Below are positions 4,937 through 33,919 of a stretch of 64,000 nucleotides of DNA, in pieces. Under the pieces are notes generated by a model. The model was not told the DNA's origin. It did not search any database and saw only the letters and a list, made by a program, of their open reading frames with translations. Within the stretch, counting starts at the first letter, position 1; the number at the start of each line of letters is the position of its first letter. The DNA lies in IMG/VR virus record IMGVR_UViG_3300020469_000011, positions 1 through 64,000 of that record; one strand, given 5' to 3'. The DNA is from a virus. A program made the translations under genes and the position numbers.

Positions 4937-5131
4937 TCAATCATTTATTTTTCTTTTAACTAACTGTTTTATTATGTGTTTTCTTTTATTTTTGCTATAA
5001 GTATGCCATTCATTTATCTCTTCCATACTTCTATTACATCCAATACAATGTGTTAATTCACTGTTAAATCTACATATTCTTCGGCATACTTGTTTTTCTG
5101 CTTCGTTATAAGCAGGTATACCGTTTTTCAT
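4937..5131 (-). CDS. DUF1289 family protein
   Basis: A 64-residue protein with Cys residues at CRRICRF and CIGCNRSMEEINEWHTYS, which matches the DUF1289 pattern (C-x3-C, then C-x2-C, with an invariant Trp). The four cysteines suggest a metal or Fe-S site, but the role is not known. The C-terminus is very basic (KNKRKHIIKQLVKRK). The start overlaps the HAD gene's stop by one base. Confidence 0.75.
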   Translation of the reverse strand: MKNGIPAYNEAEKQVCRRICRFNSELTHCIGCNRSMEEINEWHTYSKNKRKHIIKQLVKRKIND

Positions 5132-5520
5132 TATGGATTTAGTTCATTCTTTTCATTAATATAATGAGCAAACCAAGAATCTGAATTAAAACTTTTATCA
5201 CATATATAAACATCAAAATGTGGTTTAGTTCCTACAGATAGACCATGATATTTACATCCCCAACTTTTTAACTGTTCTCTTGTTTTATCTTTCCAATCTA
5301 TATTAGACCTTGCACCTCTTGCAGTCCAATAATGAATTGTATGTCCTTCATCATATAGTTTGTTGATATGTTTTATTCTTTCCATAAAAGGTTTAGCTTT
5401 CATGTAATCTTTTTTATTTTCTACGTTTTCTCCTGCTCTTTTGCGAGAAAGTTGCATTTCTATATCTTCATCGGAAATTTCACTACAGATAGTTCCATCT
5501 ATATCTACATAAATGATCAT
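5131..5520 (-). CDS. HAD-superfamily phosphatase
   Basis: The N-terminus (MIIYVDIDGTICSE) is HAD motif I, with Asp6 as likely nucleophile and Asp8 as acid/base. HYWTARGA is motif II, a Lys around residue 79 could serve as motif III, and VYICDKSF supplies the final acidic residue. At 129 residues it is a minimal HAD domain without a cap, similar to small sugar- or nucleotide-phosphatases. The substrate cannot be told. It overlaps iscU by four bases. Confidence 0.75.
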   Translation of the reverse strand: MIIYVDIDGTICSEISDEDIEMQLSRKRAGENVENKKDYMKAKPFMERIKHINKLYDEGHTIHYWTARGARSNIDWKDKTREQLKSWGCKYHGLSVGTKPHFDVYICDKSFNSDSWFAHYINEKNELNP

Positions 5521-5894
5521 AATTTTTTCTCACGATAATTTTTGATTGCAGCTTTTATTGCATCTTCAGCTAAAACAGAACAGTGGATTTTAACTGGCGG
5601 AAGAGACAATTCTTCAACAATATCACTATTTTTAATCTCAAGTGCTTCATCAACAGTCTTGCCTTTAACCCATTCTGTCGCAAGACTAGAACTAGCAATA
5701 GCACTACCGCAACCGAATGTTTTAAATTTAGCATCAATTATTTTATCATCTTCAACTTTTATTTGAAGTTTCATAACATCACCACACTCAGGTGCTCCAA
5801 CTAAACCTGTACCCACATCTTCATCATCCTTTGGAAGACTTCCAACATTTTGTGGATTATTGTAATGATCTAATACTTCTTTACTATAAGACAT
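5517..5894 (-). CDS. iscU: IscU/NifU-type Fe-S cluster scaffold protein
   Basis: A full-length (125 aa) IscU homologue. It begins YSKEVLDHYNNPQNVGSL, and the three cluster-ligand cysteines are present in their usual settings (APECGD, FGCGSAIASSS, KIHCSVLAEDAIKAAI), with the regulatory Asp in the first. The LPPVK chaperone-recognition motif (HscA binding in bacteria) is intact. The protein should assemble Fe-S clusters with host cysteine desulfurase. An A-type carrier (42608) and a glutaredoxin (1114) complete a partial set. No desulfurase gene is seen. Confidence 0.93.
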   Translation of the reverse strand: MSYSKEVLDHYNNPQNVGSLPKDDEDVGTGLVGAPECGDVMKLQIKVEDDKIIDAKFKTFGCGSAIASSSLATEWVKGKTVDEALEIKNSDIVEELSLPPVKIHCSVLAEDAIKAAIKNYREKKL

Positions 5895-6105: not shown

Positions 6106-6608
6106 AAATTACGATAATATTTACCAAAAAGAAAAAGACCATTATTTAATCTTTCAATTTGTTCTTGATTAAGTTTTAAGATATCATCTTTTTTAACTTC
6201 AGAAAAAGAGAAAATCATTTCATCCATGACGTAATTCCATCTTTCTATTAGAATATCATTTTCAGTTTCTGCAAATGTAGAATCATCCTCAACTTTTAAC
6301 TCATCTGGTACATCATCATTTGAAACAAGAGGAATTGACATAGTATTATCATTTTTAAATTTTACCAATGCAGGATGAATAATTTTAGATAGTTTATAAT
6401 CTAAACTATAAGTATCATCTCTGTCAATTTTTACATAATCAAATCTTGTTTTTTGCCAAAACCAATTAAAAGCTTGACAGAGTGTATCATTTATTTTAGT
6501 AAAAATGTTATAAGTAGTTTCATTAATTGTTTTATTTTCAAAAGCTTTCTCAATACTATCGTAGAAAAAATTAACATAAGAACGATAGCCACATAAATAA
6601 ATTTTCAT
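6096..6608 (-). CDS. Hypothetical protein (170 aa)
   Basis: Not recognised. A soluble, largely helical protein with aromatic-rich stretches (LCQAFNWFWQKTRF) and an acidic middle. Its start is joined to the purM stop (TAATG), so it is translated with the purine genes. Nothing in the sequence ties it to nucleotide metabolism apart from position. Confidence 0.6.
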   Translation of the reverse strand: MKIYLCGYRSYVNFFYDSIEKAFENKTINETTYNIFTKINDTLCQAFNWFWQKTRFDYVKIDRDDTYSLDYKLSKIIHPALVKFKNDNTMSIPLVSNDDVPDELKVEDDSTFAETENDILIERWNYVMDEMIFSFSEVKKDDILKLNQEQIERLNNGLFLFGKYYRNLWI

Positions 6609-7549
6609 TAAGCACCATCTCTGTTATATTGTTCAACTGTTCCAAGTTCTTCATACTCTAGAGGTAGATTTTTTACATTATCTCTACCTGTAATAATCAT
6701 CATACCAATACCACAATTGAAAGTTGCTCTCATTTGATAACTATCTAATCCTCCTCTTTCTTGTATCCATTCAAATAGAGATTGATTAGAATAAAATCTA
6801 TCAACTGATTTCCATGCAACTTCCATAGTACTCGGCAGCACACGATTTATATTATTAAATCCGCCGCCAGTAATATGCGCCATTGCTTTGACTTCAATTT
6901 TATTCTTTTTTAAATACTCTATTTTATCATTATAAAGGTAAGTTGGTTTTAATAATGAATGTATTAATTTTGAATCAGTTTCTTCATCAATTAATTTACG
7001 TATCAGACTAAAACCGTTACTATGAACACCACTACTATGCAATCCTAAAACTACATCTCCTTCTCTAATTTTATGTTTTATTTGTTTTGTTTTTATACCT
7101 ACTCCAAATCCACACACATCAAAATTTTCACCAGTAAACATTCCTGGCATTTCGGCAGTTTCTCCGCCAATTAATTTTACACTTATTGATTTACATGCAT
7201 TATGTATACCATTCAATATTTCTCTATAATCTGATTCATCTAATGAATTTGTCGCAAAATAATCCATAAAAAATAATGGCGTTGCTGATTCACATAACAT
7301 GTCATTAACAACCATAGCTACACAATCATAACCAACACTCATCATAGGACGTTTAAATCTTTTTTTAGCTTCCTTTGCCAAAATAGTTTTAGTACCAACA
7401 CCATCACAACTCATTACAAGGTCATAAAAAGTACGTCCTGGTAGTTTACATGTAGCAGCAAATTTACCTATTTGATCTGAAAATCCGCTGATATTTTTTA
7501 CAAGTTCATCAGCTAATTCTGTGTTTACTCCTGAAGATTTGTAATCCAT
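6608..7549 (-). CDS. purM: Phosphoribosylformylglycinamidine cyclo-ligase (AIR synthetase)
   Basis: PurM closes FGAM to AIR with ATP in de novo purine synthesis. The protein begins YKSSGVNTELADELV, has MSCDGVGTKTILA and VNDMLCESATPLFFMDYFAT (the ATP/phosphate site), LIGGETAEMPGMF, LGLHSSGVHSNGFSLIRKL and AHITGGGFNNINRVLP. At 313 residues it is slightly shorter than the usual ~345 but all core motifs are present. It follows purQ by two bases and ends in TAATG joining the next gene. Confidence 0.95.
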   Translation of the reverse strand: MDYKSSGVNTELADELVKNISGFSDQIGKFAATCKLPGRTFYDLVMSCDGVGTKTILAKEAKKRFKRPMMSVGYDCVAMVVNDMLCESATPLFFMDYFATNSLDESDYREILNGIHNACKSISVKLIGGETAEMPGMFTGENFDVCGFGVGIKTKQIKHKIREGDVVLGLHSSGVHSNGFSLIRKLIDEETDSKLIHSLLKPTYLYNDKIEYLKKNKIEVKAMAHITGGGFNNINRVLPSTMEVAWKSVDRFYSNQSLFEWIQERGGLDSYQMRATFNCGIGMMIITGRDNVKNLPLEYEELGTVEQYNRDGA

Positions 7550-7551
7550 TT

Positions 7552-8169
7552 TTACCTAGATAAAAAAGTATTTAATATTTTGTAACCGTCTTTGCTTTTA
7601 TGATATTCTTCAAAAGCACGTTCTGGATGAGGCATCAATCCAAGAACATTACCTTCATTGTTATATATACCAGCTATAGCATGTAAACTTCCATTTGGAA
7701 TAGGTGGCTTATAACGCCAAGCTACTTCAAAGTTAAAATGGTCTTTGTCATTACAATAAAATTGTCCGTCTCCATGTGCAATAGGCACCGTGATATATTT
7801 CAAATGATTGTCATATAATTCCACTTCTCTACATATAAATTTTAAAGTATCATTTCTATTTAAAGTACCTGGTAATATTTTACGTTCACATAAAATTTGA
7901 AATCCATTACAAATACCTAAAATTTTTCTACCGTCTTTAGCATATTTTTCTATATCATTCATAACTGGACTTAGACTTGCTAATTTACCAGAACGTAAAT
8001 AATCTCCATAACTAAATCCACCCGGTAAAACATACATGTCTAGTTTGGGAATGTTTGATTCTTTATGCCATATTGTAGTAACTTCAAACTCTTCGTATGT
8101 ATTTAAAAATTTTATTGTTTCTTGGTCACAGTTAGAACCAGGAAAAATTACTACTCCTACTTTAAACAT
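7552..8169 (-). CDS. purQ: FGAM synthase glutaminase subunit PurQ
   Basis: A class I glutamine amidotransferase of 205 residues that supplies ammonia to PurL. Motifs: the start VGVVIFPGSNCDQET, the oxyanion segment YVLPGGFSYGDYLRSG, the catalytic Cys in GICNGFQILCE, and the His/Glu pair in MPHPERAFEEY. Length is close to bacterial PurQ. It lies one base after purL and two bases before purM, so the three are one operon. Confidence 0.95.
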   Translation of the reverse strand: MFKVGVVIFPGSNCDQETIKFLNTYEEFEVTTIWHKESNIPKLDMYVLPGGFSYGDYLRSGKLASLSPVMNDIEKYAKDGRKILGICNGFQILCERKILPGTLNRNDTLKFICREVELYDNHLKYITVPIAHGDGQFYCNDKDHFNFEVAWRYKPPIPNGSLHAIAGIYNNEGNVLGLMPHPERAFEEYHKSKDGYKILNTFLSR

Positions 8170-8170
8170 A

Positions 8171-9730
8171 TTACCTTATTAATCCAATTACACCAATAAC
8201 AGGAGTTGGCATAATATTATCAAAATAAATTCCTTCTGTAGAATTATAGAAACTAACATTTCCACTCACAACTGGAAAATCTAATTTCTCACAGATGCTT
8301 TTCATTCCCTCAATAGTTTCTGAAAATTCATACATGATGTGAGACTCTTTAGGATTTCCAAAATTCAAACAATTTGTTAAAGCTATTGGTTCTGCACCAA
8401 CATCTTTTAATTGATTATAAGATTCTTCAATGCAATTTTGTATTCCTTGTTTTGGATTTTGATAACAAGCATAAGGATCACTATTTGTTGTCATTGCTAA
8501 GTATTTGTCTTTATTAGTAATTTTAACAATAGCAACCGGCTCTCTAATTCCTTTAACCGTATTTCCTTGAACTTGACTATCAAATTGATCCCAAACCCAA
8601 TTCATATCAAAATCCATATCTATTTTTGGATGTGCTTTTTCACGATGTCTTTTTTCTTTCCAATTATTTTCTTCATACTCTAATATATTCAACGGAATAT
8701 TACAACATATTTTATTATCTTTATAAACAATAAAATGCTTGTCATCAATTAATTTTCCTATTTCTACACAATCTAAATCCCATTTGTCAAATATATCAAA
8801 AACTTCCTCATTTACATTTTCATCAAGAACAAATAACATTCTCTCTTGACTTTCACTTAATAATATTTCCCAAGGTTCCATACCTTTTTCTCTCAGCGGA
8901 ACTTTGTCTATGTGTATTTCAATACCTAGATTACCTTTAATTGCTATTTCTGTAGTTGAACTAGTGAGTCCTGCTGCTCCCATATCTTGTGCTGCAATAA
9001 CATAACCTGTTGAAAATAGTTCTAAACTTGCTTCTAGTAAGAGTTTTTCAAAAAATGGATCACCTACTTGAACAGTAGGTCTTTTATCTTCTTCTCCACT
9101 AAAAGTTTCACTTGCCATTGTTGCACCACCAATACCATCTCTACCTGTTTTTGCACCTACATAATAAACAGTTCCTTTTTTGGCAGGTTTACTAATAAAG
9201 ATTTGTTTATCAGTATAACCAACACACATTGCATTTACTAAAGGATTTCTTTCATAACAATCAGCTAAAGTTATTTTGCTACTTACTGTAGGAACACCTA
9301 CACAATTGCCGTAATTACTTAATCCTCCTACAACACCTTCAATAATATTTTTTGTTTTTGTAATATTAGGAGAACCGAAATAAAGACTATTCAAATTTGC
9401 AATAGGTCTACATCCCATTGTAAATATATCTCTCATAATTCCACCAACACCAGTCGCCGCACCTTGAAAGGGTTCAATATAACTTGGGTGATTATGCGAC
9501 TCCATTTTAAAAGCTACTTTATCACTCTCACCAATGTCAATAACTCCTGCATTTTCGCCAGGACCATATAAAACATTTTTATTATGAATATAAAGTTTTT
9601 TTAATAAATTTTTAGAAGATTTATAACTACAGTGTTCTGACCACATTGCATCAAAAACTGCCAACTCCGTTTGACTGGGAACTCGCCAGAGCCTTTTTTC
9701 TATAAGACGTATCTCTTCTTTAGCTAACAT
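8171..9730 (-). CDS. purL: FGAM synthase subunit PurL, lacking the last domain
   Basis: The small-type PurL that works with PurS and PurQ to make FGAM. I start it at 9730 (MLAKEEIRLIEKRLWRVPSQ); an upstream ATG at 9760 adds an unlikely hydrophobic decapeptide. Visible motifs: WSEHCSYKSSK, FKMESHNHPSYIEPFQGAATG, VGAKTGRDGIGGATMAS and MGAAGLTSSTTE in the first half, then LTNCLNFGNP and PVVSGNVSFYN. The protein ends right after TPVIGVIGLI at 519 residues. Family members (about 600-740 aa) continue with a second AIRS_C-type domain that is absent here. It overlaps purS by 11 bases. Confidence 0.92.
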   Translation of the reverse strand: MLAKEEIRLIEKRLWRVPSQTELAVFDAMWSEHCSYKSSKNLLKKLYIHNKNVLYGPGENAGVIDIGESDKVAFKMESHNHPSYIEPFQGAATGVGGIMRDIFTMGCRPIANLNSLYFGSPNITKTKNIIEGVVGGLSNYGNCVGVPTVSSKITLADCYERNPLVNAMCVGYTDKQIFISKPAKKGTVYYVGAKTGRDGIGGATMASETFSGEEDKRPTVQVGDPFFEKLLLEASLELFSTGYVIAAQDMGAAGLTSSTTEIAIKGNLGIEIHIDKVPLREKGMEPWEILLSESQERMLFVLDENVNEEVFDIFDKWDLDCVEIGKLIDDKHFIVYKDNKICCNIPLNILEYEENNWKEKRHREKAHPKIDMDFDMNWVWDQFDSQVQGNTVKGIREPVAIVKITNKDKYLAMTTNSDPYACYQNPKQGIQNCIEESYNQLKDVGAEPIALTNCLNFGNPKESHIMYEFSETIEGMKSICEKLDFPVVSGNVSFYNSTEGIYFDNIMPTPVIGVIGLIR

Positions 9731-9959
9731 TATAAATCTCACAATCATACAAAAGGTCATTTACAAAAATTTCTTTTACAAAATTTTCAATACCTTCTGT
9801 ACCAAGTTCATTTGCAACGTCATCATCTATATTAACATAAAAGATTTGTCCAACTTTAATCTCTTTTATTCCTGATTGTAGTTCTAACTTTTTCTGTATT
9901 ACTTCTCCCTCTATGTCTTTTATTCCTTCTCTCAACTTCGTCTTTATTTCTATAAACAT
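9720..9959 (-). CDS. purS: FGAM synthase accessory subunit PurS
   Basis: A 79-residue PurS, the small subunit that bridges PurL and PurQ. The start FIEIKTKLREGIKDIEGEVI and middle GIKEIKVGQIFYVNID match the family's first strand, helix and second strand, and the tail NDLLYDCEIYNVS matches the final strand. The first 104 bases overlap the end of purD in another frame. The last 11 overlap purL. Confidence 0.88.
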   Translation of the reverse strand: MFIEIKTKLREGIKDIEGEVIQKKLELQSGIKEIKVGQIFYVNIDDDVANELGTEGIENFVKEIFVNDLLYDCEIYNVS

Positions 9960-11193
9960 ACTCCTCTCCTATATCTTTTCTATATGCTATATTGTCAAAA
10001 CATATCTTATCAATCTCATTATACACGTTTCCTCTTGCTTTGTCAAGCATTTCTCCGAGAGCAGTTACATTTAGCACCCTACCTCCTTTGGTTTTGAATT
10101 TTTGAGCGGTCTCATCAAATTCTGTAGCAGCATGAAAAACTTGGACATCTTTATTTACATTTTCCAATCCCTTTATAATATGATCTATTTTATATTCTGT
10201 CGGGTATCCTTGAGAACATAAAGACACTGTAATCGCAGAACCTTCATAAAATTTAGGTTCTGGTAAATCTTCTAATCCGCCTTTCGCCATTGCCATAAGA
10301 TAGGGAGCAAGATCGTCTTCCATTAACATCATTAATACCTGACATTCAGGATCTCCAAATCTTACATTATATTCTATTACATAAGGACCTGTTTCATTGA
10401 TCATTAATCCAATATAAAGAATTCCTTTATATTTTAATCCTTCAAGTCGCATACCATTTAAAGTTGGTTTTATAATACTGTTTTCAATTATTTTTTTCAT
10501 TTTGTCTGTAATTAAAGGATGTGGTGCTATCGCTCCCATACCTCCAGTATTCGGTCCTTTATCACCATCTTCCAATCTTTTATAATCTTTACAATACGGT
10601 AATACCTTGTAAGTATCTCCGTCTGACATGACAAAACAACTTGCTTCAAAACCTGATATAAAATCTTCAAATAATACTTTATTACTAGGTGACTTGTACC
10701 TATTATTAATAAAGATATGTGGAATATTGCTCCAAGCTTCTTGTTTAGATTTTGCAATTACTACTCCTTTCCCGCCACAAAGACCATCTTCTTTTATAAC
10801 TACAGGATAGTATTCATTTTCTAGATTGAGAGGATCTATGCTAACAATTTTATGTGGACGATCATTCCTATATGCATCAAGATCTAATAGTGCTTGAGTC
10901 ATTCCTTCTGGATTTCTTGTGTATGTCAACCATCTAGCTGTTGGTATATCCCATCTTTGCATGAACTGTTTCGCCCACAACTTGCTAGATTCTAATCTAG
11001 CAGCAAGTCTATTTGGACCTACGATGGGTGTATGAGTGAATTGATATCTATCTACAATACCATTTGCTAAAGGTGCTTCTGGTCCAACAAAGGCCAAATC
11101 TGGATAATTATTGGTAACAACGTGACCATCTTTTTCTAATTTCCATTTTATTGCGGCTTCTCTACCTCCAGAGCCTATTAAATCTATTTTCAC
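9856..11193 (-). CDS. purD: Phosphoribosylamine-glycine ligase (GAR synthetase)
   Basis: An ATP-grasp ligase of 445 residues joining phosphoribosylamine and glycine. It begins IDLIGSGGREAAIKWKL, then LAFVGPEAPLANGIVD, VVIKEDGLCGGKGVVIAKS (ATP-grasp), DGDKGPNTGGMGAIAPHP, and YIEYNVRFGDPECQ-type metal ligands (VIEYNVRFGDPE). The family normally ends near the YRKDIG motif. Here about 30 extra, very basic residues follow, encoded by DNA that also encodes the start of PurS. The starting methionine is already one strand before the GxGGRE loop, so the start is secure. Confidence 0.94.
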   Translation of the reverse strand: MKIDLIGSGGREAAIKWKLEKDGHVVTNNYPDLAFVGPEAPLANGIVDRYQFTHTPIVGPNRLAARLESSKLWAKQFMQRWDIPTARWLTYTRNPEGMTQALLDLDAYRNDRPHKIVSIDPLNLENEYYPVVIKEDGLCGGKGVVIAKSKQEAWSNIPHIFINNRYKSPSNKVLFEDFISGFEASCFVMSDGDTYKVLPYCKDYKRLEDGDKGPNTGGMGAIAPHPLITDKMKKIIENSIIKPTLNGMRLEGLKYKGILYIGLMINETGPYVIEYNVRFGDPECQVLMMLMEDDLAPYLMAMAKGGLEDLPEPKFYEGSAITVSLCSQGYPTEYKIDHIIKGLENVNKDVQVFHAATEFDETAQKFKTKGGRVLNVTALGEMLDKARGNVYNEIDKICFDNIAYRKDIGEEYVYRNKDEVERRNKRHRGRSNTEKVRTTIRNKRD

Positions 11194-11204
11194 TTTTCAA
11201 TCTC

Positions 11205-11738
11205 TTAAAATACATTATTATCAACTACATTAACATTTTCTTTACTATAAACAGTATTAAACTCGGCATTAATAACATCAATTTCTTTTTCTTGTTTATT
11301 TCTTTCATCGTTTAACTTATGATGAAGATCAACGTCACTTAGTGCAAGAATTTCTATTGCCAATAAAGCAGCATTTTTGGAATTGTTAATCGCAACAGTA
11401 GCTACAGGAACTCCTCTTGGCATTTGAACAATAGATAATAAACTATCTAATCCTTCGGCTGTTGAGGTTCTTACTGGCACTCCGATTACTGGTAGCACAG
11501 TTAGAGCAGCAAACATACCTGGTAAATGAGCGGCTCCACCAGCGCCAGCGATGATTACTTTAAATCCATCATCAACTGCAGATTTTGCATATTTTGTCAT
11601 TTTGAGTGGAGTTCTATGTGCGGATAATATTCTTTTTTCATAAGAAACATTATAATACTCAAGAGTATCACAAGCAGGTTTCATTACTTCCCAATCACTT
11701 TTACTTCCCATTACAACACTTACAACTGGATTTTCCAT
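11205..11738 (-). CDS. purE: N5-carboxyaminoimidazole ribonucleotide mutase
   Basis: Class I PurE converts N5-CAIR to CAIR. Motifs: MGSKSDWEVMKPA at the N-terminus, SAHRTPLKM with the active-site His, IIAGAGGAAHLPGM and GVPVATVAINNSKNAALLA. The start at 11738 is chosen because AAGGAG lies seven bases upstream; an ATG five codons earlier would put that ribosome site inside the gene. No PurK is visible, so host PurK would supply N5-CAIR. The C-terminal ~20 residues (after RNKQEKEIDV) are a phage-specific tail. Confidence 0.95.
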   Translation of the reverse strand: MENPVVSVVMGSKSDWEVMKPACDTLEYYNVSYEKRILSAHRTPLKMTKYAKSAVDDGFKVIIAGAGGAAHLPGMFAALTVLPVIGVPVRTSTAEGLDSLLSIVQMPRGVPVATVAINNSKNAALLAIEILALSDVDLHHKLNDERNKQEKEIDVINAEFNTVYSKENVNVVDNNVF

Positions 11739-11739
11739 A

Positions 11740-11970
11740 TTATTCTCCTTCATGATTTATAGTTTTATCATCAATAAAATATTTTTCTATCATGTCTATT
11801 TGTTCTTGATACTTAGCAATCATATCTATTTCTCCTTCTATAGCTTCTAATATATCACTATGTTCTCCAATACCCACTGGATTATTTAAATACACTTCTA
11901 CATTTGTTTTGTGTTTGTCTATTTTTCCTTTAGCATGAGATACTAAAGAGTTTATAATTATCTGTCTCAT
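11740..11970 (-). CDS. Conserved T4-like marine phage protein (76 aa)
   Basis: A small helical protein beginning MRQIIINSLVSHAKGKIDKH and containing NNPVGIGEHSDILEAIE, then a long acidic helix (MIAKYQEQIDMIEKYF). I recognise this pattern from conserved hypothetical proteins of marine T4-like phages. No biochemical role is known to me. It sits between purE (one base away) and the dihydroorotate-dehydrogenase-like gene. Confidence 0.65.
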   Translation of the reverse strand: MRQIIINSLVSHAKGKIDKHKTNVEVYLNNPVGIGEHSDILEAIEGEIDMIAKYQEQIDMIEKYFIDDKTINHEGE

Positions 11971-11971
11971 T

Positions 11972-12694
11972 TCATCTCTCCATTAATATTTTATATAATT
12001 TATAAGGATTAAAACAAACAGTTCCTAAAGATATTCCGTTTGCACCGTGATCTAAGTATCTTTTTATATCTGTTTTATTTTCTATTCCTCCACCAGCTAT
12101 TATTTCTAAGTTAGAAATGTTTAAAGATTTTAATATATCAATTATTTTAATAACATAAGGATATAAAATTTTACCAGATTGTCCACCTTTATCTGTTAAA
12201 AATGTATTACAGCAATGTATGCTTGTAAATCCAGTATTGATAAGTTTTTCTATTTCTTTTTGCTCAAAGGTGGGAGAAATTTTAACAATAACTTTTCTTT
12301 GATTTGTTAAAAACTTTTCTATACCTTGTGTGTAATTTTCAAAATGTTTGATATTTGGACAACTTAAATTTAATTCAACATCTACATCATCAGGAACTAC
12401 TTCTGATAATATAGACCAATCATCAGATTCAATTGCTGCTAATGAAAGTATTTCTTTTTTATTTTTTCTATATTTTTTTAGGCCAAATTCAATTCCAGGA
12501 TTTCTTAAACCTATAGAATTGTACCATGATCCATTAGAATAGCGTAAAGTTTTTAGTATCTGTTTTATTAGACCTTTACGTTTGTAAAGAGTGAAAGAAC
12601 CTCTTACGCTTTTTGTATTGTTAGTATGAATGTAATTTCCGAACGGAGCCGCTATGTAAGTAGAAATCAATTCACTAGATTCATTATTAATCAT
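11972..12694 (-). CDS. Dihydroorotate dehydrogenase-like flavoprotein
   Basis: A 240-residue TIM-barrel protein of the DHODH family, which oxidises dihydroorotate to orotate in pyrimidine synthesis. Recognisable segments: NSIGLRNPGIE, VELNLSCPNIK (substrate/FMN-binding Asn), VIVKISPT, GGQSGKILYPY, LEIIAGGGIENK and ANGISLGTVCF, the last two forming the FMN phosphate site. It is shorter than cellular enzymes (about 300 aa), missing the N-terminal part. The catalytic base is CCNT-like rather than an obvious Ser/Cys in the usual loop, so activity is likely but not certain. Confidence 0.75.
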   Translation of the reverse strand: MINNESSELISTYIAAPFGNYIHTNNTKSVRGSFTLYKRKGLIKQILKTLRYSNGSWYNSIGLRNPGIEFGLKKYRKNKKEILSLAAIESDDWSILSEVVPDDVDVELNLSCPNIKHFENYTQGIEKFLTNQRKVIVKISPTFEQKEIEKLINTGFTSIHCCNTFLTDKGGQSGKILYPYVIKIIDILKSLNISNLEIIAGGGIENKTDIKRYLDHGANGISLGTVCFNPYKLYKILMER

Positions 12695-13094: not shown

Positions 13095-13102
13095 TATTTA
13101 TC
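13095..13102 (-). promoter_or_regulatory. T4-type late promoter (GATAAATA)
   Basis: On the minus strand GATAAATA differs from the late consensus in one base. It lies about 45 bases before the start at 13049 and overlaps the stop of the binding-protein-like gene. Confidence 0.5.
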
Positions 13103-13550
13103 AATTAATTACAATAGGTATAATTTTTAATCCTATTATATCTGCAAGACCTTCGGTGTCTGAATTACTAAATGCTATAGCATTTTTATCTGCCATTACT
13201 TCTCTATACGTTTCCATAATTGTTTGTTTTACATCAACTTGTTCTAATTGACCTCTTGCTATTTTCTCTTCAATTTTTCTTTTAAGTAAATGTGGAGGTA
13301 ATACTGAAATTTCACGTACTACAGAATCTAATAAAATAGAATCTTTACCATATAATACAATAACAATTTTTGTTTCAACACCTTGAATAACTTCTGCTCT
13401 ACCTTCCAAAACATACATCAACTCTTCTCCACTTATCTCAGTAAGCCTGTTTTGAGGGTGAACCGCTATAGAATTATCTGCCTGCGTATTCGTAAATAAT
13501 ATCGAAAACGCTAATATTAAACTAAAAAACGTAAGTAATAGAAGCCGCAT
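13101..13550 (-). CDS. Secreted PBP-like (PstS-type fold) periplasmic protein
   Basis: A signal peptide is evident (MRLLLLTFFSLILAFSILFT, then NTQA-DN). The mature 125 residues contain ISGEELMYVLEGRAEVIQG, IVIVLYGKDS and the end NAIAFSNSDTEGLADIIGLKIIPI, which resemble the phosphate-ABC-transporter-type binding proteins that sit next to porin-like genes in marine gammaproteobacteria. It is only about half the length of a full PstS, so it probably represents one lobe. The first 29 bases overlap the porin gene, so translation is coupled. Ligand unknown. Confidence 0.65.
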   Translation of the reverse strand: MRLLLLTFFSLILAFSILFTNTQADNSIAVHPQNRLTEISGEELMYVLEGRAEVIQGVETKIVIVLYGKDSILLDSVVREISVLPPHLLKRKIEEKIARGQLEQVDVKQTIMETYREVMADKNAIAFSNSDTEGLADIIGLKIIPIVIN

Positions 13551-14670
13551 AGGTTTCCCAAGTTTCCTTTAAATTAGTATTAGTTAACCTTCTATTTTCT
13601 TTCCAAGTTAACTGTTGTGTGCCGTTGGTGTGACTGTACTGTCCCTTAAAAATTAAATTATCAAAATGATCATAAGAAAAACCGGTTCCTCTATGAGTTT
13701 CTTTATCATCGTTTTCTAATACATCGTAGCCGTAGTTTGCCCATAATTTATATTTATGATTACGGTATTGAATCATAGTATTCCAGAATTGATATTTATA
13801 CGGTCCCAATCTATATCCGTAATATTTTTGTGTTAAATCATTTGCTGTTCCATCACCAACTCGCAGTCTATCTATTTTTTCAAGTGTAAAAATAAAATCT
13901 CTCCAATAATATTCACCAGCATTATATCTATAAACATAATTTAGATCTACTAAATCATATTGTCTATCTTCTTCTTTTATTGACTTATTTAAATTGTAAA
14001 ATTTAGGTGTTGGATAAAAATCTGTTGTAATACTACCTTCAATTTGACGATATCTAAAACTATTGTAATAAAATTCTAATTGATATGAATAATTAATATT
14101 TTGTGATTGTGCGTCCATTCCCCTAAAGTTTTGAGTATAATCTTCTTTTGGACGTAAATCACTATTTCTACCTATCAAATATTCTAATTCAAAACATGCT
14201 CTACCAATATGCATTCTACCGAAAAAAGAATGACCGTCAATTGACGTTAGAAGTTGTCTTGTGTTTTGCCATACCATATTTGTTGGATAATATTGCAAAA
14301 CAAAAGGTCTTTCAGGTGCAAATTTAGTATCACTCCAAAATCCAAAAGGTACACTTAATCTACCAATTCTATATCCTACTCCATAATCTCTTTTATTAAA
14401 GTCCGCTTGTACAAAAGAATAATTAAAATCTAATTGTCTATCATCATCATACGCTGATTCATAAACAAATAAACTATTCCATTTTAAAATCTTTGTTAAA
14501 TTTACATTTAATTGTAAGCCTAATTCAACATTAGCATGATTTTCTGGTAATTCATTTTCTGTTGTTTCAACATAACTTGTTGTAAGCCATGAACGTGTGC
14601 TTAAACGTAAGTCTGCGTTTGCTATTCCGTATACTAAACAGAATATTAGCGTAAGAACTATTTTTTTCAT
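13522..14670 (-). CDS. Outer-membrane porin-like beta-barrel
   Basis: A 382-residue protein with a signal peptide (MKKIVLTLIFCLVYGIANA-D) and alternating aromatic/polar strands throughout (for example FRYRQIEGSITTDFYP and YKLWANYGYDVLEN). It ends in YVF; a C-terminal Phe is the hallmark recognised by the outer-membrane assembly machinery. It overlaps the upstream coiled-coil gene by four bases and the downstream binding-protein-like gene by 29. A barrel of this size could have about 16 strands. A phage gene for such a barrel is unusual; altered host uptake or receptor masking are guesses. Confidence 0.75.
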   Translation of the reverse strand: MKKIVLTLIFCLVYGIANADLRLSTRSWLTTSYVETTENELPENHANVELGLQLNVNLTKILKWNSLFVYESAYDDDRQLDFNYSFVQADFNKRDYGVGYRIGRLSVPFGFWSDTKFAPERPFVLQYYPTNMVWQNTRQLLTSIDGHSFFGRMHIGRACFELEYLIGRNSDLRPKEDYTQNFRGMDAQSQNINYSYQLEFYYNSFRYRQIEGSITTDFYPTPKFYNLNKSIKEEDRQYDLVDLNYVYRYNAGEYYWRDFIFTLEKIDRLRVGDGTANDLTQKYYGYRLGPYKYQFWNTMIQYRNHKYKLWANYGYDVLENDDKETHRGTGFSYDHFDNLIFKGQYSHTNGTQQLTWKENRRLTNTNLKETWETYAASITYVF

Positions 14671-15311
14671 TTGGAGGTTTTGGGAGTTATCTTAGTTATT
14701 TTTGAATAGACATCTGAGATGCTAAAAGTATTCGTGTCAACACTTTTTTCTACTGAAGTTAGATTACTAGAGACTTTTAAGATTTGTTCATCAATTGTAA
14801 CCAAAGTTTCTTTTACTGAATCTACATTACCTTGCATTACAAATAATTGTTTTTCAGTATCTCTATTTTGATCTGTTAAAGTAGTTACTTGAGTTTTTAA
14901 TAATGGCACGGAATCAAGTTTGGTTTGCATCTCATACAAAGAGTTCCATACAGAACCTAAACCTCCGGCAAATACTACACCAAGTATTGCACCAACATAT
15001 TTGGAAACATTAGATTTTTTTACCGTATTATGATCTAAATCTTCAATTTTTTCATGTATATGGTCTAATAATTTTTCATGATGACCTTTCTCACGGTCTA
15101 TTATTTCACCAACTTTAGGAAGAACACTCTTATAAAGGTAAGATTCAAATTCACGAACTAAATAATCGCTATCTGTTGATTTTCTTGTTAATTCTAATAC
15201 TTCTTTTTCAAATGATTTTAAACGAATATCCAGGTCGTTTTGCTTTTCTATTATTTTAACTTCATGTTTAGCTAACCACTCATAAAATTGTTCTCTTGTG
15301 AAATCAGACAT
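14667..15311 (-). CDS. Coiled-coil protein with one membrane segment
   Basis: The 214-residue protein has charged helices (residues 1-95), one hydrophobic, Gly-rich segment (YVGAILGVVFAGGLGSVW, about 104-121), then a long coiled coil to the C-terminus. This suggests an inner-membrane protein with coiled-coil arms on both sides. It is the first gene of the porin operon and is preceded by a late promoter at 15355-15362. No family recognised. Confidence 0.65.
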   Translation of the reverse strand: MSDFTREQFYEWLAKHEVKIIEKQNDLDIRLKSFEKEVLELTRKSTDSDYLVREFESYLYKSVLPKVGEIIDREKGHHEKLLDHIHEKIEDLDHNTVKKSNVSKYVGAILGVVFAGGLGSVWNSLYEMQTKLDSVPLLKTQVTTLTDQNRDTEKQLFVMQGNVDSVKETLVTIDEQILKVSSNLTSVEKSVDTNTFSISDVYSKITKITPKTSK

Positions 15312-15353: not shown

Positions 15354-15626
15354 TTATTTATATGTTTGAGTTTTTTCTAAAAACTCAGTAATAATATTAA
15401 CAATAAAATCATTTATTTTCATATCTTTCTCATGTGCTTCTGTAGCCAAAAACATGAATGTTTCCTTACTGATATCAATAGTTATTTTTTTCTGAAATTC
15501 ATCATCAACTGTTTGAAAAACATTTTCATTTTTTTCTAGATATTCAATTGAAGAATCAAAATCACTATCTTTATTAATATCCATTAATATATTTTTAATG
15601 TCTCTCAATTCTTGTGCGGTATTCAT
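15354..15626 (-). CDS. Hypothetical protein (90 aa)
   Basis: An acidic N-terminal half is followed by KKITIDISKETFMFLATEAHEKDM and INDFIVNIITEFLE, a strand-helix-helix layout like ribbon-helix-helix DNA-binding proteins. That reading is tentative. The start touches the stop of the 112-residue gene upstream. Confidence 0.55.
   Translation of the reverse strand: MNTAQELRDIKNILMDINKDSDFDSSIEYLEKNENVFQTVDDEFQKKITIDISKETFMFLATEAHEKDMKINDFIVNIITEFLEKTQTYK
15355..15362 (-). promoter_or_regulatory. T4-type late promoter
   Basis: Perfect TATAAATA on the minus strand, overlapping the stop of the 90-residue gene and about 45 bases before the coiled-coil membrane gene. It implies that the porin operon is transcribed late. 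Confidence 0.6.
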
Positions 15627-20969: not shown

Positions 20970-22082
20970 ATGAGAATTGAAGAAGACATTAAATTAGACT
21001 TTAAAGATGTTTTGTTTAAACCTAAACGATCTACTTTAACAAGCAGGCGTGATGTAGACTTAACTAGAACATTTAAGTTTGCTAATAGTGGTAAAGAATG
21101 GACAGGCATTCCTATTATGGCTAGTAATATGGATGGTGTTGGAACTTTTGAGATGGCTAAAATTTTACAAGAATATAAAATGATAACCGTAATGAGTAAA
21201 CACTATTCATTAGATGATTGGCATGATGCAATGAAAAGTGGAATAGATCCAAATTATTTGAGTGTGTGTACAGGAACTGGAATAATTTGGGATGAGCTTT
21301 CTTCAGATTATATTACAATGCAAGATGTTCTCAAATCTTATTCCGCTATTCAATTTATTTGTGTAGACGTTGCAAATGGATATCACGAAAATTATAGTAA
21401 CTTTGTTGCTAAACTTAGAAAAGATTATCCCGATAAAATAATTATTGCCGGTAATGTTATTACAAGTGAAATGACGGAAGAGTTAATTATAAATGGTGCA
21501 GATATTGTTAAATGCGGAATAGGTCCTGGAAGTGTATGTACAACAAGACTTGTAACAGGTGTTGGTGTTCCTCAGTTGTCAGGTATTATAGAATGTGCTG
21601 ATGCGGCTAATGGAGTAGGTGGACATATTATTGCTGACGGTGGATGCATTTATCCTGGTGATGTTGCAAAAGCATTTGGCGCTGGTGCTCATTTTGTTAT
21701 GCTTGGTGGAATGTTAGCCGGTCATGATGAAGGTGGAGGTGCGATTACTGAAAAGGCATATCCTAAAGAAGAATTTGATATTAGAGAAGATGGAGTTGTT
21801 ATTGATGGAGTTCAATGGGAAAGAAAAAGATTTATTGAATTTTATGGAATGAGTTCAGACGTTGCTATGTCAAAACATGGAAGTAGAAAAGATGGCTATA
21901 GAGGTGCTGAAGGTAGACTAGTAAAGCTACCGTATAGAGGTTCTGTTAAAAATGCAATAACGGAAATATTAGGAGGAGTAAGAAGCGCAGCAACTTATAT
22001 CGGTGCACAAAGAATTAAAGATATGCCAAAATGTGCTACGTTTGTTAGAGTTTTACAACAATATAATAATGAATACAAATAA
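20970..22082 (+). CDS. guaC: GMP reductase
   Basis: Reduces GMP to IMP with NADPH. The 370-residue barrel has [31 protein letters not shown], the catalytic Cys loop [13 protein letters not shown], and the long [20 protein letters not shown] and [14 protein letters not shown] stretches typical of GuaC. There is no CBS pair as in IMP dehydrogenase, and the flap region reads as GMP reductase. A good ribosome site (AAAGGAG) precedes it. It may convert guanine nucleotides released from host DNA and RNA back to IMP, complementing the purine block at 6608. Confidence 0.93.
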
Positions 22083-33036: not shown

Positions 33037-33345
33037 ATGTCATATAATATATGTTCTTGTAAACTTTCTTCAGGTGAAGAAATTATTGCTAAAGTAGAAG
33101 ATCACCAAAATTATCTAAACCCTACAGGTACTATTGAAATAAAAAATCCTTTTGTATTAATTCAAACACAACAAGGAGTGGGAATGATGCCTTGGATAAA
33201 TACAGGGTCAACAGAAACTGTAACTCTCAAAACAAGTCATATAATGACTATTGTTTCATCTAAGTCAGAAGTTGAGTCAATGTATGTTAAGGCAACTTCG
33301 GGTATTGATATTGCTTCAGCGGATGCTTCATCTATTATTATGTAA
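33037..33345 (+). CDS. Small beta-rich conserved phage protein (102 aa)
   Basis: Begins MSYNICSCKLSSGEEIIAKV and continues IEIKNPFVLIQTQQGVGMMP-type strands. The short beta strands suggest a small barrel, possibly Sm-like, but this is only a visual impression. It directly follows gene 45 by one base and its stop overlaps the transglycosylase start region. Confidence 0.6.
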   Translation: MSYNICSCKLSSGEEIIAKVEDHQNYLNPTGTIEIKNPFVLIQTQQGVGMMPWINTGSTETVTLKTSHIMTIVSSKSEVESMYVKATSGIDIASADASSIIM

Positions 33346-33346
33346 T

Positions 33347-33919
33347 ATGAAAAAAATTATTATGTGTTTTTTAGCACTTATGTTATCTTATACAAATATA
33401 AGTGCAAGTGATAAAAAAATCAATGTCTTTTATAATGATTTACGTTTTGAAAGGAGTATAAAATATTGTATATCAAGAGCCAATAAAAAGCAGTATTTAG
33501 AATTTATAGAACCTGTGTTTTCAAAATATAAATTACCAAATATGCTTACTTTTATACCAGTAATAGAAAGTTGTTTTAATCCATATGCCAAGTCATCTCA
33601 AGGTGCATTAGGCATGTGGCAAATAAATGATATTACAGCAAGACATGTAGGATTAAAAGAAGGGTTCATCACAGATGAAAGATACAATTGGAAAAAATCT
33701 ACAGTTGCTGCCGCTAAATATTTACTCTTTTTAAGAGAACGGTTTGATAATTGGGAATTAGTATTAGCAGCATATAATGTAGGTCCTACATTTTTAAGAG
33801 GACAAATTTCAAAATATAAGACATCTAACATTGAGAGATTAAAATTACCTAAAGAAACTAGAGATTATGTTCACAAGTTTAGGGCTTTATTTGAATACCT
33901 AAAATTATTAAGGAGTTGA
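33347..33919 (+). CDS. Secreted lytic transglycosylase (SLT domain)
   Basis: A 190-residue peptidoglycan-cleaving enzyme. I start it at 33347, one base after the previous stop, because this gives a clean signal peptide (MKKIIMCFLALMLSYTNISA-SD); a longer frame from 33251 overlaps the previous gene. SLT motifs: LTFIPVIESCFNPYAKSS with the catalytic Glu, QGALGMWQIND, and LAAYNVGPTFL. It acts in the periplasm, in lysis or cell-wall penetration. It sits in the replication block. Confidence 0.88.
   Translation: MKKIIMCFLALMLSYTNISASDKKINVFYNDLRFERSIKYCISRANKKQYLEFIEPVFSKYKLPNMLTFIPVIESCFNPYAKSSQGALGMWQINDITARHVGLKEGFITDERYNWKKSTVAAAKYLLFLRERFDNWELVLAAYNVGPTFLRGQISKYKTSNIERLKLPKETRDYVHKFRALFEYLKLLRS

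Follow-up and report, generated by a model that had tools for sequence, protein, structure and literature searches.

Outer-membrane barrels encoded by phages are known from Lc of the lambdoid phage PA-2, which can alter the phage sensitivity of the host. Phage porins of the Lc type are trimers of the classical kind that lack a partner in the periplasm, and the barrel described here presumably belongs to another family. Furthermore, marine cyanophages encode the periplasmic binding protein PstS. This is a complete two-lobe phosphate receptor, whereas the phage analyzed here carries one divergent lobe plus a barrel. A porin and a periplasmic binding protein are found together in VpvABC of Vibrio cholerae (PMC12456836, PMC8754643). 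The system consists of the porin VpvA, the periplasmic binding protein VpvB and the membrane-bound diguanylate cyclase VpvC. In the absence of vpvC, vpvAB is also found as a conserved operon of two genes, which may constitute a sensing unit (PMC12456836).

The order of porin and periplasmic binding protein is the same in VpvAB and in the phage locus. However, the phage lacks the diguanylate cyclase and carries a coiled-coil membrane protein upstream instead, and its lobe is highly divergent. A search for GGDEF (PF00990) in the 146-kb phage record, which is possibly incomplete, gave no match. On the basis of the published description of VpvABC, we call the phage pair VpvAB-like in architecture and, by sequence, a homologue of the bacterial pairs assembled below. 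When the literature was searched for VpvABC in combination with phage, no report of a copy in a virus was retrieved. The peptidoglycan danger response of V. cholerae was considered as a further point of contact via VpvC and dropped; vpvC served in the respective paper only as a rugose control strain.

We analyzed a window of 64,000 nt, the whole stretch of DNA under study, which belongs to an IMG/VR virus record of 146,510 bp with 484 ORFs. The source virus is a T4-like myovirus known only from metagenomes. T4-like marker genes of the record encode the tail tube, a UvsW-like helicase, a late sigma factor, an SbcC-like subunit and a baseplate wedge protein. According to UvsW, the nearest named relatives are the Pelagibacter phages Mosig and HTVC008M (43%).

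The original prediction placed three overlapping genes in this window, encoding a coiled-coil inner-membrane protein, an outer-membrane barrel and a secreted PBP-like protein in this order. All three ORFs were present as claimed. The features of the locus are as follows:

15355-15362, minus strand: TATAAATA, resembling a late promoter and sharing bases with the end of the upstream ORF
14667-15311, minus strand: first gene, coiled-coil protein (214 aa)
13522-14670, minus strand: second gene, barrel (382 aa)
14260-14370, minus strand: residues 101-137 of the barrel (GRLSVPFGFWSDTKFAPERPF...P), its segment of highest conservation, near-invariant among phages
13101-13550, minus strand: third gene, PBP-like lobe (149 aa)

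The genes for the coiled-coil protein and the barrel overlap by 4 nt and those for the barrel and the lobe by 29 nt. The trio is flanked by a purine-synthesis cluster on one side and by the tail-tube and UvsW genes on the other. The first of these flanks and further metabolic genes of the window comprise:

5517-5894: NifU/IscU-like Fe-S scaffold (PF01592, E 6e-54)
6608-7549: PurM
7552-8169: PurQ-like
8171-9760: PurL
9856-11193: PurD
11205-11753: PurE
11972-12694: dihydroorotate-dehydrogenase-like protein
20970-22082: GMP reductase

The late purine pathway is near-complete in this phage (window positions 6608-11753 and 20970-22082). The ORF next after the NifU/IscU-like gene (5131-5520) had no Pfam match.

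A search of viral contigs for the three-gene order, proposed together with the original prediction, recovered the linked trio in five other IMG/VR contigs. These represent two sequence types that share gene order and neighbours at 70-74% aa identity. Further scans of viral contigs gave none beyond the same five, and a looser motif added three chance matches. The dN/dS was 0.13-0.21 for each of the three genes, which indicates purifying selection. Because of this and the recurrence in five contigs, the trio consists of real genes and not of chance ORFs.

Two of the phages, which are ~99.8% identical over tens of kb, diverged by 18% exactly across the leader, the coiled-coil gene and the barrel gene. 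Between contigs L002 and L003 this divergent block contained 331 differing sites across 1,852 bp, compared with 7 internal sites over ~11 kb elsewhere. It started 74 nt before the coiled-coil gene and ended inside the overlap of barrel and lobe genes. Four contigs shared one allele and the other allele came from one assembly. The single-assembly allele may reflect a mix of strains, and even such a mix would need the two alleles to occur in nearly the same background. Coiled coil and barrel were exchanged together while the lobe was left untouched, which suggests that coiled coil and barrel have to fit one another. With a dN/dS of 0.15 between the swapped alleles, an exchange of old alleles is indicated rather than rapid positive selection. 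Since the barrel was swapped between near-identical phages, it is probably of importance at the infected cell's surface. Receptor masking or exclusion, a role proposed at the outset, gains indirect support from the exchange, and the tail-fibre region is one of the few further spots where these phages diverge.

In the leaders of the three sequence types, NATAAATA precedes the first gene by 51, 49 and 48 nt. The original prediction named a late-type operon with a motif in front of it, and the presence of this motif was confirmed. An enrichment over the whole window, however, was absent: the octamer TATAAATA was counted 11 times with 16.6 expected. In a comparison with 20 composition-matched control words, NATAAATA was found 38-72 nt upstream of 15 phage ORFs (control mean 5.7, maximum 11), a spacing that was picked after seeing the positions. 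When any position within 100 nt upstream was allowed, its number was no better than that of the controls (22, control mean 17.5). Tail-fibre, tail-tube, baseplate and endolysin-like genes were among the NATAAATA-bearing ORFs. The narrow spacing moderately favours a late promoter, and late expression of the trio is plausible from the sequence.

The lead to the bacterial relatives was a motif of a porin-like family of bacteria. When genomes of bacteria and archaea were scanned once with this motif, the scan yielded 113 loci with a long motif-bearing ORF, many of them from Nitrosomonadales, Methylococcales, Chromatiales and Oceanospirillales. At most loci a PBP-like gene of ~145 aa was directly adjoining the barrel, and a profile-based count found the partner gene next to 95 of the 98 assessable motif-scan barrels. 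The bacterial loci were used as two sets, class 1 (L020-L137) and class 2 (L201-L220), the latter found with the lobe profile. The homology was then tested in reverse by searching whole bacterial genomes with a profile from the three phage barrels only. This search found bacterial barrels with E-values down to 3e-9; a PBP-like gene adjoined all of these barrels (15/15), and 11 of the loci were independent of the motif scan. Barrel and lobe form a fixed pair in bacteria, and this pair is widespread. The gene order in class 2 was mostly barrel then lobe, as in the phage. The bacterial-type barrel motif had no match in viral contigs, and no such pair of barrel and lobe was found in GenBank phages.

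Small one-lobe PBP-like proteins were detected in 93 of 369 Gammaproteobacteria genomes, with up to 10 among the matches listed in one genome. At loci L201-L220 their neighbours were often barrels and in some cases MCP or GGDEF/EAL proteins. These small proteins seem to make up a sensor family that is large and poorly named.

The phage barrel is clearly connected to this bacterial family. It was the best phage ORF with the first bacterial profile from the motif-scan loci (56 bits). With the profile of both classes it reached 72.9 bits (E=5.9e-22), while the next of the 484 ORFs had an E-value of 0.5. An alignment of phage and bacterial barrels by hhalign extended over 337 columns (E=1.6e-15). 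The signal peptide and the C-terminal Phe that had been claimed for the barrel are both visible in its sequence, and a Phe end is common in the bacterial homologues (99/103 in class 1, 16/16 in class 2). Homology supports a barrel fold. An AlphaFold model from the 3-sequence alignment was too poor to confirm it (pLDDT 35), and the best PDB matches of this model were the porins VhChiP and DcaP with E-values no better than 0.02. Neither barrel nor lobe obtained a usable match in Pfam, PHROGs, NCBIfam or PDB sequences.

Of the family-conserved barrel positions, 35 of 72 were kept in the phage. Residues 101-137 are the best conserved part of the barrel in bacteria as well and are possibly a pore loop. 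In a barrel tree, the phage proteins grouped on a long branch of their own next to class 1 (support 0.87). This places the phage barrel as an old or fast-evolving lineage and not as a recent capture from any sampled bacterium.

The 149-aa protein, whose signal peptide is likewise visible, is predicted to be a secreted one-lobe PBP-like protein and a divergent homologue of the bacterial barrel's partner, with modest but significant similarity. The first profiles from the motif-scan loci already ranked it top among the phage ORFs, with a weaker match than for the barrel. Against the bacterial profile of both classes it scored 20.1 bits (E=8.9e-6) and was the sole significant ORF of 484; the runner-up ORFs in the combined profile searches reached about 4 bits. 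Without the signal peptide the E-value was 0.014. It was still the best ORF, none of 20,000 shuffles scored as high and the shuffled controls stayed below the phage matches. The evidence for homology of the lobe is weaker and draws partly on its adjacency to the barrel. An AlphaFold model of the lobe from three sequences (pLDDT 52) was discarded, its structure matches being meaningless. Taken as a pair, the two proteins are very probably the phage homologue of the bacterial outer-membrane barrel and periplasmic one-lobe protein. The original prediction was right in the barrel, the PBP-like lobe, the membrane coiled coil and their linkage. It overlooked the homology to the bacterial pair.

Of 33 positions conserved to at least 80% in the family, the lobe retained only 7. 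From the family signature (W, H, WDR, SGxG..P and GY), the two conserved Trp, the His, WDR and SGxG..P are missing in the phage lobe, and its mature part has no Trp. The lobe is nevertheless strongly conserved among the phages, and its retention thus seems to have a reason unrelated to the original ligand. These losses bear on nutrient uptake, in which the lobe would capture phosphate or another anion imported by the barrel, as an auxiliary metabolic function. The class-2 bacterial lobes match PstS (TIGR02136, E 9e-9) and PBP_like_2, the barrel's most conserved segment is retained and the trio adjoins the purine-synthesis cluster of the phage. The phage lobe itself had no match to the PstS and PBP_like_2 models of Pfam and NCBIfam. 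Furthermore, it is a one-lobe protein, and the trio contains no ABC transporter. Because the lobe has lost most of the family-conserved residues ordinary ligand uptake becomes less likely, and the proposed role in phosphate or nutrient uptake is weakened; we consider it decidedly unlikely.

The bacterial pairs are usually accompanied by transducers, GGDEF/EAL or chemotaxis (MCP) proteins, often downstream. In class 2, GGDEF/EAL or methyl-accepting proteins were found beside the pair in several cases. Phage and bacterial pairs are alike in the full-length homology of the barrel, the modest but significant homology of the lobe, the adjacency and the gene overlap. However, the bacterial pairs usually have such transducers and intact lobe residues, whereas no GGDEF was found in the phage record and most of those residues are lost. 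An input half carried without the GGDEF half, with a lobe that lost family residues yet was kept among phages, could act as a sensory decoy. The phage pair would compete with the host pair for the c-di-GMP or chemotaxis transducer and thereby blunt envelope signalling. This presupposes a host with such a transducer. A late-type leader would also be late for a takeover of signalling, and the joint swap of coiled coil and barrel is left unexplained. A decoy function is therefore unlikely in our view.

The 214-aa protein has an N-terminal coiled coil, one hydrophobic segment (approximately residues 105-125, with the hydropathy peak at residues 106-124) and a C-terminal coiled coil. It is probably an inner-membrane tether. 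It shares 70% aa identity with its viral relatives, and no relatives were found outside the five viral contigs. Weak PHROGs matches were obtained to phrog_937 'hemolysin' (E 8e-4) and to phrog_739, an Rz-like spanin (E 0.12). Together with the late-type leader and the exchange of coiled coil and barrel as a unit, these matches might point to lysis or release, with the coiled-coil protein as a holin accessory or spanin-like protein that breaks the envelope with barrel and lobe. However, neither match exceeds what generic coiled coils would give, and an endolysin-like gene is located elsewhere, away from the trio (33251-33919). No lipobox, as in the o-spanin of Rz/Rz1, was seen by eye in the barrel or the lobe protein. 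Since the barrel homologues sit with sensory transducers, the envelope-crossing lysis role suggested originally has lost ground, and we regard it as very improbable.

Remodelling of the surface or exclusion is the best fit to the allele exchange and the late-type leader. By comparison, decoy sensing would fit the homology, uptake would fit the relation to PstS but not the lost residues, and lysis would fit the timing only. Taken as a whole, we tentatively favour, at somewhat less than even confidence, a VpvAB-type module put to a new use, namely to remodel the host cell surface in the late phase of infection. In this reading, the barrel would be inserted into the outer membrane late in infection and the lobe would sit under it in the periplasm, no longer binding its original ligand. 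The coiled-coil protein would link both to the inner membrane. The change in the infected cell's surface brought about by the complex would most likely limit competition, by superinfection exclusion or receptor remodelling. This competition-limiting surface function, taken by itself, is possible and is proposed with more reserve. Several points count against the favoured surface remodelling. The AlphaFold models were of poor quality, and one of the two alleles comes from a single assembly. The homology of the lobe without its signal peptide is modest (E 0.014), and the dN/dS of the alleles bears no mark of rapid surface evolution.

In a broader and rather doubtful version, the locus would be the input half of a sensing unit captured by a virus. 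Here, the tether would have replaced the transducer, the ligand signature would have been lost and the alleles of barrel and tether would have been exchanged. A surface barrel specified by the phage would govern competition between phages or block host signalling. The finding ties late genes of a phage to a bacterial sensing unit that is widespread and poorly understood. The swapped alleles provide a natural experiment for learning which surface property is contested by the phages. Furthermore, the assembled family of barrel, lobe and GGDEF/EAL or MCP proteins offers a way to study what is sensed by units of this kind.

The trio is not the only divergent spot of these phages. The full overlaps of the L002 contig (1-66 kb, 28.6-70 kb and 46-73.7 kb) with three other contigs were compared. 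Here, further divergence was found at an accessory gene replacement, in the first part of an exported protein of 164 aa and in the tail-fibre region (73 kb). The accessory gene was swapped for an unrelated one (L222:9702-10904 and L226:15190-16608) in contigs otherwise ~99.8% identical, and neither product (400 aa and 472 aa, respectively) had a Pfam match. The exported 164-aa protein (L222:7055-7549) had no Pfam match as well. Its first ~40 residues differed between the near-identical phages and the rest was the same.
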